A stretch of 64,000 bases of DNA from Pyxidicoccus parkwaysis. GTDB lineage: Bacteria; Myxococcota; Myxococcia; Myxococcales; Myxococcaceae. Numbering within the stretch: the first letter of the stretch is position 1; every line of letters starts with the position of its first letter. The notes under the pieces are model-generated. The model had not been told where the DNA came from. It was given only the letters and a program-made list of their open reading frames with translations, and ran no database searches. The DNA lies in assembly GCF_017301735.1 (NCBI RefSeq), contig NZ_CP071090.1, forward strand, positions 7,740,001 to 7,804,000, written 5' to 3'. Positions 61,414 to 64,000 of the stretch are shown piece after piece. The translations under genes and the position numbers were made by a program.

Positions 61414-64000
61414 ATGAAAGTCTCCTGCCCGTCTTGCCAGACGAACTACAACATCGATGACAAGCGGATCCCCCCCGGTGGCGCCAAGCTCAAGTGCGCC
61501 CGGTGCCAGACGACCTTCCCCATCAAGCTCGAGGCCGTGAGCGCTCCGGCGCCGGCCGCGCCGCAGGCTCCCGCCATTCCGCTGCCCGGCGCCGCTGCCC
61601 CGCAGGCCGCGGCCATCCCGCTGCCCGGCGCCGCGGCGCCGCACTCCGCCGCGATTCCGCTGCCCGGCGCCGCGCCGGACCCGGACGCGTTCGCCTTCGA
61701 TGACGGCGCCACCGCCGTCACCTCCGCCGCGGCCATTCCGCTGCCGGGCAACGCCGCGCCCTCCGCCGGTGCCATTCCGCTGCCGGGCAACTCCGCGCCG
61801 CACTCCGCCGCGATTCCGCTGCCGGGGAGCGCGAGCGCCGCCATCCCGCTGCCGGGTGCCGCCTCCTCGTACGGCGATGCCATTCCGTTGCCGGGTGCCG
61901 CCTCGTACGAGGACGCCATTCCGCTGCCGGGCGCCGCCTCGTACGGGGACGCCATTCCGCTGCCGGGCGCCGCCTCGTACGGGGACGCCATTCCGCTGCC
62001 GGGCGCCGCGCCCGAGGCGGACGCGTTCGCCTTCGATGATGGCGCCACCGCCGTCACGTCCGCCGCCGCCATTCCGCTTCCGGGCGTCGCGGCGCCCCGC
62101 TCCGAGGCCATTCCGCTGCCGGGCGCGGCCTCGCCCATGGACTCCTTCGGCGAGTACGACGACGCCCCGCCCGCGGTGGACAACCGGGACGCGACGCGCG
62201 TCGTCCGCATCCCCCTGCCGAGCGACGCGTACCGCGAGCCGCCTCCGTCCACGCACGCCTACGGCACCAGCGACGAGGTGCAGGGCACCGCGCGCGACTT
62301 CGACTTCTCCGAGGAGCCGCCGGCCCCGGTGGACGTCCCGGCCGAGTCCTACGGCGCCCCGGGCGTGCCCGGCACCGCGCGCGACTTCGACTTCTCCGAC
62401 GACGCGCTGCCCGTCCCCGCCCAGCCGCAGCCCGCGGCGGATCCGTTCGCTTTCGACGTGGAGACTTCGAGCAGCGAGGCCCAGGCCTTCGCCCTGCCGC
62501 CCACGCCCAACCGAGCGCAGGCGCCGGACTTCGGCGCCCCGGCCGGTGAGGACCCGTTCGCCCTGCCGCCTCCGCCCGCGTACGCGCAGCCGGCCGCCGG
62601 GGAGGATCCGTTCGCCCTGCCGCCTCCGCCCATGTCGTCCGAGGCGGATCCGTTCGCCCTGCCGCCTCCGCCCGCGTACGCGCAGCCGGCCGCTGGCGAG
62701 GACCCGTTCGCCCTGCCGCCTCCGCCGGCCGCCGCGCCATCGTTCGACTTCGGCGAGTTGCCGTCCCCCGCCGGCGCGGATCCGTTCGCCCTGCCCCCGC
62801 CGCCCGCGGCCATGGACTACTCGGACCTGCCGGCCCCCGCGGCTCCGGCCATGGACTTCTCGGACCTGCCCGCGCCGGCCGCGCCGCCTCAGGACCTGTC
62901 CTTCGACTTCGCCGAGCCCCCGCCCGCGGCCTCCGCGCCCTCGGCGGATCCGTTCGCGCTGGACTTCGCGCCCCCGCCGGCCGCGCCCGCGCCGGACTTC
63001 AACCTCGACTTCGCCGAGCCTCCGCCGCCCGCGTCCGCCGCCCCCGTCAACCCGACGGTGGACTTCGGTGACGTGGACTTCGGCTCGCCGCCGCCCCAGG
63101 CCTCCGCGCCCGCCGGCATCCCCGACTCGCTCGAGTTCGACCCCACCGCGCGGCCCGCCGACGACCTGGAGGCAGACCTCTCCGAGCCGCTGCCGCCCCC
63201 GCCCAACGCCGGCCCCGCGGACGGCCTGGAGATGCTGTCGTTCATCGACGACGCCGGGAAGGACGCGGGCGCCAACGCCGGCGCCAAGGTGCGCCGCTTC
63301 CACGTGCGCCGCCGCTCGGGCAAGGTGTTCGGCCCGTTCGACGAGGGCGTCATCGTCAAGATGCTGGAGGACGGCCAGCTCCTCGGTAACGAGGACGTCT
63401 CCACGGACTCGGAGACCTGGTCCGCCATCGGCACGGTGAGCACCTTCGCCGCCGCCATCCAACGGCTCATGGAGGGCCCCGCCAAGGTGGTGGCTCCCAC
63501 CGCGGCTCCGACGGTGGCCGCCGCCGAGGCCCCGCGCGCCGAGGCCGCTCCGGCCAGCATGAAGCGCCTGGAGCAGCTCTACGAGGGCCGCATGGCCGGC
63601 GTGGCCGTGGTGGACCGCAGCGGCGTCCAGGAGAAGTGGAAGAAGCGCATCCCCATGATGGTGGCCGCCGGCATCGGCGTGGTGGTGCTCGGCATCGGCG
63701 TGGGCATGGAGTTCGGCTCGCGCTACGGCGCCTATGGCCGCCGCGCCCTCTTCCCCGCCAAGGTCTCCGCCGGCTCGCCCCAGGCGAAGCAGGTGGACGA
63801 CGCCCGCCAGGCGCTGCTCCAGGACACCTTCGCCAGCTACAAGCAGGCCTACAGCCTCAGCAGCCAGGTGCTCGCGACGGGCGAGTACCCAGCTGTGCGC
63901 TCGTTGTGGTGCCAGTCCGTCTCCTACCTGCAGCGCCGCTACGCCGCCGCGGACATGAACGACATGTCCCGCTGCGTGGAGGCGATGCCGGACATCGCGC
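61414..64000 (+). CDS. Zinc-ribbon / IPLPG-repeat / GYF-domain / transmembrane protein, 3' end outside the window
   Basis: At least 862 codons are open to the window end. Residues 1-36 are a zinc ribbon (Cys5, Cys8, Cys28, Cys31; MKVSCPSCQTNYNIDDKR). Residues 55-237 hold thirteen I-P-L-P-G motifs (a fourteenth reads IPLPS), residues 380-464 five exact D-P-F-A-L-P-P-P-P blocks, and 460-600 a Pro/Asp-rich acidic region. A GYF_2-type domain follows at about 626-690 (FHVRRRSGKVFGPFDEGVIVKMLEDGQLLG), then one TM helix at about 746-766 and the start of a periplasmic part. AAGGA lies 8 to 12 bases before the ATG. This resembles the myxobacterial gliding protein GltJ/AgmX in domain order, but the neighbours are not glt genes, so it is more safely a paralogue. 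Confidence 0.83.
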   Translation, partial: MKVSCPSCQTNYNIDDKRIPPGGAKLKCARCQTTFPIKLEAVSAPAPAAPQAPAIPLPGAAAPQAAAIPLPGAAAPHSAAIPLPGAAPDPDAFAFDDGATAVTSAAAIPLPGNAAPSAGAIPLPGNSAPHSAAIPLPGSASAAIPLPGAASSYGDAIPLPGAASYEDAIPLPGAASYGDAIPLPGAASYGDAIPLPGAAPEADAFAFDDGATAVTSAAAIPLPGVAAPRSEAIPLPGAASPMDSFGEYDDAPPAVDNRDATRVVRIPLPSDAYREPPPSTHAYGTSDEVQGTARDFDFSEEPPAPVDVPAESYGAPGVPGTARDFDFSDDALPVPAQPQPAADPFAFDVETSSSEAQAFALPPTPNRAQAPDFGAPAGEDPFALPPPPAYAQPAAGEDPFALPPPPMSSEADPFALPPPPAYAQPAAGEDPFALPPPPAAAPSFDFGELPSPAGADPFALPPPPAAMDYSDLPAPAAPAMDFSDLPAPAAPPQDLSFDFAEPPPAASAPSADPFALDFAPPPAAPAPDFNLDFAEPPPPASAAPVNPTVDFGDVDFGSPPPQASAPAGIPDSLEFDPTARPADDLEADLSEPLPPPPNAGPADGLEMLSFIDDAGKDAGANAGAKVRRFHVRRRSGKVFGPFDEGVIVKMLEDGQLLGNEDVSTDSETWSAIGTVSTFAAAIQRLMEGPAKVVAPTAAPTVAAAEAPRAEAAPASMKRLEQLYEGRMAGVAVVDRSGVQEKWKKRIPMMVAAGIGVVVLGIGVGMEFGSRYGAYGRRALFPAKVSAGSPQAKQVDDARQALLQDTFASYKQAYSLSSQVLATGEYPAVRSLWCQSVSYLQRRYAAADMNDMSRCVEAMPDIA
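61576..62124. repeat. IPLPG-coding tandem repeats
   Basis: Thirteen irregularly spaced in-frame repeats of ATT/ATC-CCG-CTG-CC(C/G)-GGC plus flanking Gly/Ala/Ser codons lie in this stretch of the GYF-protein gene. Around 61880-62000 the repeats become nearly exact 39-bp copies (Ala-Ala-Ser-Tyr-Gly/Glu-Asp-Ala-Ile-Pro-Leu-Pro-Gly), a sign of recent expansion. Confidence 0.9.

Follow-up and report, generated by a model that had tools for sequence, protein, structure and literature searches.

A gene that begins near the end of the analysed stretch of the Pyxidicoccus parkwaysis genome (64,000 nucleotides, hereafter the window) encodes a 1540-residue protein in which an array of IPLPG motifs and a divergent GYF_2-type domain precede a single transmembrane (TM) helix and a row of TPRs. 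The array beside a presumed proline-binding domain suggests that the protein sticks to itself and so builds a cluster at the membrane. As the best explanation, which we put forward tentatively and hold to be short of probable, the protein would be an inner-membrane scaffold whose GYF domain grips the [IV]PLPG motifs of its own or of a sister chain, thereby clustering a periplasmic TPR rod.

Results

Domain order of the protein

The window covers positions 7740001-7804000 of a 13.2 Mb genome that consists of one contig. The frame opened by the ATG at 61414 on the plus strand (preceded, by eye, by an AAGGA just 5′ of it) stays open to the end of the window, as the first-pass annotation had stated, and closes just past it at a stop at 66036 in window coordinates (locus L005, 415-5037). 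Its features, all on the plus strand, are as follows.

61414..64000, +: coding sequence, first 862 codons of 1540; the frame runs on to the stop at 66036
61414..61521, +: MJ0042-type zinc ribbon, residues 1-36, CxxC-CxxC (PF13717, E 2.6e-15; TIGR02098, E 4.7e-10)
61576..62124, +: 13 IPLPG, residues 55-237, at steps of 10-13 residues plus two steps of 27 (motif count, shuffles, genome-wide count)
62551..62805, +: five DPFALPPPP blocks, residues 380-464 (motif count; DPFA in 20 of 41 orthologous linkers)
63223..63252, +: conserved GLEMLSFIDD, residues 604-613, just before the GYF domain (38 of 41 orthologues have an FID- or LEMLF-type motif)
63295..63471, +: GYF_2-type domain, about residues 628-686 (profile comparison and alignment)
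63649..63711, +: single transmembrane helix, about residues 746-766 (hydropathy)
63712..64000, +: start of the presumed periplasmic part; the TPRs come after it, past the window end
about 64111-66018, past the window, +: about 18 TPRs, about residues 900 to 1535 (Pfam TPR families, best E 1.8e-48)

The protein thus reads, from its N-terminus, zinc ribbon, proline-rich linker (to about residue 620), GYF_2-type domain, one TM helix and TPRs up to the C-terminus. The zinc ribbon, with both CxxC pairs, scores 56.5 bits against PF13717 (cut-off 30.3), and hydropathy peaks at 2.2 at residue 746; both elements had been recognised in the first-pass annotation, whose counts of 13 IPLPG and five DPFALPPPP we reproduce exactly, a sixth DPFAL lying beyond the five blocks. 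We put the number of TPRs at about 18 because 41 aligned C-terminal parts (a set that overlaps only in part with the 41 linkers counted below) share a conserved Ala every 34 residues between positions 924 and 1511. The C-terminus of GltJ is TonB-like, and a TonB-like end had also been guessed for the sequence past 64000; that guess was rejected, Pfam TPR families being found there instead.

From the TM helix to the C-terminus the orthologues measure 785-835 aa in 40 of 41 cases and 1031 in L083. We place the N-terminal half in the cytosol and the TPR half in the periplasm with some reserve. The charge bias across the helix favours N-inside in only 27 of 41 sequences and is tied or opposite in the rest, so that the assignment leans chiefly on the zinc ribbon and on ZitP as a precedent, the zinc ribbon of that protein lying in the cytoplasm according to the available text of PMC5182065. 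A periplasmic disulfide was rejected as evidence on topology, Cys833 and Cys854 not being conserved in the alignment of 41.

A recurrent [IV]PLPG motif in the linker

The linker of this protein holds 13 [IV]PLPG motifs where shuffled versions hold a mean of 0.02, and its 13 IPLPG copies are written in 7 different DNA spellings. For comparison we took the linkers of 46 orthologues, namely our own gene, 40 fetched stretches and five of nine named loci; the other four named loci, cut by contig ends, were left out, as were the full-length stretches of the remaining genome matches. We then set aside five of the 46, since L060, L065 and L078 run off their contigs, L070 has its fourth zinc-ribbon Cys replaced and L081 has GPL for GPF (the readable parts of L060, L065, L078, L070 and L081 hold 0, 0, 2, 1 and 6 [IV]PLP). 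The 41 linkers retained contain 320 [IV]PLP against 2.4 in shuffles, spread over 35 of the 41 and exceeding all 300 shuffles in 33 of them; the longer [IV]PLPG is found 280 times against 0.3, in 29 of 41. PPG[FWYMLI], by comparison, occurs once where shuffles predict 10.1. PPG followed by a hydrophobic residue is the ligand type of eukaryotic GYF domains, and PPGF is the ligand of the plant protein PSIG1, as given in the accessible passages of PMC5657617.

The enrichment persists when each genus contributes one linker (five of the genus labels having been assigned by ourselves): 163 [IV]PLP are then counted against a mean of 1.24 and a maximum of 6 in 500 shuffles, with the motif present in 22 of 28 genera and 9 of 13 families. 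In this set the residue before PLP is mostly V (100) or I (63), and the residue after it mostly G (141). Linker length varies between 115 and 770 aa among the 41 orthologues and the number of [IV]PLP copies between 1 and 23 among the carriers, the number rising with length (Spearman 0.85); the ASYGDA spacers between the motifs repeat as well. Six of the 41 orthologues (L072, L073, L074, L079, L083 and L084) keep the GYF domain and have no [IV]PLP; L072, L073 and L074 carry one, three and one copies of LPPIG.

Within the genome the array is, as far as our searches reach, apparently confined to this gene. The DNA pattern RTBCCSYTSCCSGG, which stands for the common codons of [IVM]P[LF]PG and leaves rarer codons uncovered, matches 57 times against 28 for the reversed control: 12 matches fall in this gene (the thirteenth copy, with its CTT codon, escapes the pattern), two in the gene at L110, and the other 43 are single, their frames unchecked, the nearest two lying 1.1 kb apart. 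A protein homology search of the genome with the array returned no other place better than E 0.037.

Two further observations concern the linkers. An acidic-x-T-R-[VA]-like motif recurs in the linkers of zinc-ribbon proteins (L005 and its orthologues, L093, L110), including 15 of the 41 orthologous linkers, and is possibly a candidate phosphorylation site. In several draft assemblies breaks fall within the linker repeats (the start of L038, L011, L043 and contig ends), and the first letters of L038 and L011 resemble what we take to be an adapter; annotated proteins at such breaks may therefore be truncated.

A divergent GYF_2-type domain

Pfam reports no GYF domain for the 861 in-window residues at E<=1, nor for the full 1540-aa protein at E<=0.01, and the isolated domain reaches only 14.3 bits (E 0.036) against PF14237, below the curated cut-off of 25.8 bits. 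PF14237 is matched at E<=1 by 26 of 28 family members, the best at 2.5e-7, these 28 having been hand-picked from 36 non-redundant segments to form alignment A1; when the resulting GYF profile is compared by hhalign with three GYF-type domains encoded elsewhere in the genome, that of GltJ included, the probability is 96 (E 4.4e-9), and two of those three domains exceed the PF14237 cut-off. The label ‘GYF_2-like’ originally given to the domain is therefore right, with the proviso that the domain is divergent. The only solved structure returned by the profile at E<=1 is AgmX/GltJ 7z3c, at a non-significant E of 0.84, and AlphaFold2 modelled the domain with low confidence (mean pLDDT 40.6 and 49.2, from alignments of 10 close sequences).

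The GYF block, residues 635-659, is the best-conserved block of the aligned C-terminal parts, with 73% mean identity over the 41 sequences against 35-60% in the other blocks, and G658 and E660 are identical in 41 of 41; part of the high conservation of GPF comes from the procedure itself, since the segments were picked with GP[FYM] (G640-P641) as anchor. In the accessible passages on PSIG1 (PMC5657617), W570 and Y575 bind the ligand. By eye, in our own alignment, these positions are taken here by Met650 and Gln655, so that a proline cradle is not evident. A LEMLSFIDD- or LEMLF-type motif (LEMLF in one family) precedes the domain in 38 of 41 orthologues and is thus kept more widely than [IV]PLP (35 of 41).

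Searching the genome with the GYF profile at E<=0.01 gives a single further match, a weak one, in L098 (487-1902, minus strand; G000:C1 ~137873). This is a 472-aa frame in which a GYF_2 match of 26.3 bits is accompanied by PilZ (E 8.9e-16) and by a DnaJ match under the cut-off.

Distribution and gene neighbourhood

With a 283-residue query comprising the GYF domain, the TM helix and the stretch before the TPRs, a threshold of E<=1e-4 gave relatives in 143 of the 195 Myxococcota genomes; 142 of these have a single match, and G067 has a second, short one. The 52 genomes with no match include 12 from one family (f2) of the same order. Named carriers include Pyxidicoccus, Citreicoccus and Myxococcus xanthus AM003, whose contig starts inside the linker and shows six [IV]PLP.

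Downstream of the gene lie serS (Seryl_tRNA_N, E 9.2e-21; tRNA-synt_2b, E 2.1e-39) and then a deaminase gene, by its look tadA. The serS cluster recurs at 23 of the 43 loci compared, some of which are too short to show it, and among the genes kept it adjoins this gene in 22; as a clue to function this recurrence is of little help. Judged by eye, the recurrent neighbours included no glt gene that we recognised.

Relation to GltJ

GltJ/AgmX of Myxococcus xanthus likewise has an N-terminal MJ0042-type zinc ribbon, a GYF_2 domain and a single TM helix (that of GltJ judged by eye). The first-pass annotation had drawn this likeness; it holds for the parts and fails for membership. Against NF033761 the 861 in-window residues score 17.3 bits, over residues 1-60 only, where the cut-off is 450. 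In a whole-genome search this gene reaches 21.6 bits and the GltJ orthologue, at G000 1877913, 892.5 bits. We therefore rejected GltJ orthology. That GltJ, a 742-aa frame with its GYF domain about 120 residues after the zinc ribbon, has, unlike the protein studied here, no [IV]PLP and no Pfam TPR. The idea that the full gene might be the GltJ orthologue within a glt cluster is accordingly contradicted, GltJ lying elsewhere and serS and the deaminase gene downstream, and the earlier statement that the surrounding genes are not glt genes agrees with these two neighbours and with the inspection by eye of the others.

A GltJ-like match (NF033761, E<=1e-30) is present in 147 of the 195 genomes and exceeds the curated cut-off in 94. 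Both genes are present in 127 genomes, this gene only in 16, a GltJ-like match only in 20 and neither in 32, counts that are blurred by incomplete genomes, by shared descent, which inflates the overlap, and by GltJ paralogues among the matches. This gene and gltJ are separable, although those factors make the picture less sharp. A link to gliding receives no support from the downstream neighbours, and the co-occurrence is incomplete.

The G1 and G2 gliding clusters include TPR proteins, none of them with the present plan in the text available from PMC3169522; GltJ is named among the MglA effectors in the accessible part of a review (PMC12288465), and the zinc ribbon of AgmX, when tested in Caulobacter, was not polar (PMC5182065, available text).

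As a separate observation, a 117-aa frame (L115 from 1086 onward and L104 1518-2174; G000:C1 ~11644100) has a zinc ribbon nearly identical to that of GltJ and is followed just after by a TIR-domain frame (TIR_2, E 2.7e-15); it has the appearance of an incomplete copy of gltJ next to a TIR gene.

Other zinc-ribbon proteins and known systems

ZitP of Caulobacter crescentus resembles the protein in having a zinc ribbon followed by one TM helix, and its zinc ribbon recruits the polar client PopZ; it differs in its 245 residues and in the DUF3426 that follows the helix, and GYF or TPR are not mentioned in the available text (PMC5182065). In our protein Pfam places TPRs, not DUF3426, after the helix. 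PSIG1 is similar in that a GYF domain and its own ligand motif share one chain, with possible intramolecular self-inhibition; unlike our protein it is eukaryotic, and its GYF domain, with a ligand-binding Trp and Tyr, has PPGF as ligand (PMC5657617, accessible passages).

The same genome encodes a paralogue (L112) that shares the zinc ribbon, the proline-rich linker, a TM helix (by eye) and TPR; unlike our protein it has 1024 aa, no GYF match and no [IV]PLP. Among seven other zinc-ribbon proteins of the genome, the five counted (two short ones were not) hold 0, 0, 5, 0 and 0 [IV]PLP. The protein with five is L110 (1554-4073; G000:C1 ~578553-581072), which combines a zinc ribbon, a proline-rich linker, a TM helix by eye and a sub-cut-off DUF3426 match, and so has a ZitP-like plan, here within a myxobacterium. 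Its family, present in 53 of the 59 genomes of the bacterial family, served as a control: in 21 members (L110 itself and 20 orthologues from the 53 genomes with a match), any [IV]PLP is found in 5, L110 included, amounting to 11 copies against 1.3 in shuffles. The number of [IV]PLP per chain is far lower in the L110 family than in our protein, and not zero. The idea that [IV]PLP is a general feature of zinc-ribbon proteins was not upheld, four of the five others counted and all but 5 of the 21 L110-family members having none. A further zinc-ribbon protein, L111 (872-3136, minus strand), has many NATQTFGAV repeats in the linker before its hydrophobic helix.

Discussion

We propose that the protein is a bitopic inner-membrane scaffold, encoded in most Myxococcota genomes searched, whose GYF domain would grip [IV]PLPG in place of the ligand read by the canonical aromatic residues that it lacks. 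Such a reading is argued for by the retention of domain and motif together over much of the phylum, by the apparent restriction of the array, as far as searched, to this gene, and by the replacement of the PPGF-binding residues, which matches the almost complete lack of PPG ligands. Since our searches met the array in this gene alone, the GYF domain would usually bind the protein's own linker, either in cis (a closed form) or in a neighbour (an open, clustered form). With one binding domain against 1 to 23 ligands per chain, branched clusters could form at the membrane, the length of the linker setting reach and valency. As in ZitP, the zinc ribbon might recruit or sense a client in the cytosol; the TPR rod might present an envelope partner. 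The binding of the GYF domain to the protein's own proline motifs, raised in the first-pass annotation, is a candidate interaction, supported indirectly by the co-occurrence in 35 of 41 orthologues and by the presence of the array in one gene; the main weaknesses of the proposal are that six orthologues have the GYF domain without [IV]PLP, that an aromatic cradle is missing and that binding is deduced from sequence. The related GYF domain of GltJ, in a protein without [IV]PLP, also speaks against self-binding, as do L060 and L065, whose readable parts lack the motif; the low-confidence AlphaFold2 models and the mixed charge bias across the helix weigh on the same side.

Another protein might equally well dock on the PLPG array. 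The array would then act as a multivalent strip for a different cytosolic protein of polarity or the cytoskeleton, with the GYF domain binding, for instance, the GLEMLSFIDD-type motif or a partner, a possibility that we take seriously while considering it rather doubtful. It would account for the GYF domains kept without [IV]PLP, for the wider retention of the FID/LEMLF motif beside the domain (38 orthologues against 35) and for the missing aromatic ligand residues; yet among the zinc-ribbon and GYF proteins of the genome we see no candidate reader of [IV]PLPG, and array and GYF domain stand together in one gene in 9 of 13 families. We regard as improbable that the linker is a low-constraint disordered tether along which [IV]PLPG, devoid of a binding function, was spread by repeat slippage. 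The variation in copy number, its dependence on linker length and the repeated ASYGDA spacers would suit such an origin, but 9 of 13 families show these residues again, between different flanks and with Val and Ile exchanged before PLP, and the 13 copies of this gene use 7 DNA spellings; slippage alone would hardly arrive at the same peptide in unlike linkers, although one ancestral array is possible.

That the protein works alongside GltJ, as a component of the Agl-Glt gliding machinery or as an adaptor for it, seems to us slightly more improbable still. The zinc ribbon, GYF domain and one TM helix are common to both proteins, the only solved structure matched by the GYF profile (not significantly) is that of AgmX/GltJ, and the two genes coincide in 127 of 195 genomes; against this, 16 genomes have this gene with no GltJ-like match at E<=1e-30 and 20 show the reverse, and no glt gene was recognised by eye among the recurrent neighbours.

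Returning to the self-binding scaffold, its furthest-reaching form would be a subtype of bacterial GYF domain whose ligand is new, namely the [IV]PLPG array of its own chain: a switchable, self-crosslinking membrane condensate joined through one helix to a periplasmic TPR rod of fixed length, old within the Myxococcota and tuned by the length of the array. Taken as a whole we judge this unlikely. The open literature that we searched (GltJ/GYF, zinc ribbon, TPR, the motif and M. xanthus; subscription papers, including the work on 7z3c, lay outside its scope) contained no description of this protein and no ligand motif for a bacterial GYF domain. The IPLPG/VPLPG papers listed were unrelated by title, as were those on M. 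xanthus with TPRs and a zinc ribbon, those on CD2BP2 and PPG-binding GYF domains were eukaryotic by title, and in the available text on zinc ribbon, GYF and Myxococcus the GYF passages concerned other systems.

A domain and its candidate ligand lying in one gene over much of a phylum offer a direct peptide to test, and M. xanthus is a ready laboratory host in which to study the scaffold. A widespread envelope scaffold present once per genome would, if true, provide a lead on how myxobacteria organise their inner membrane.
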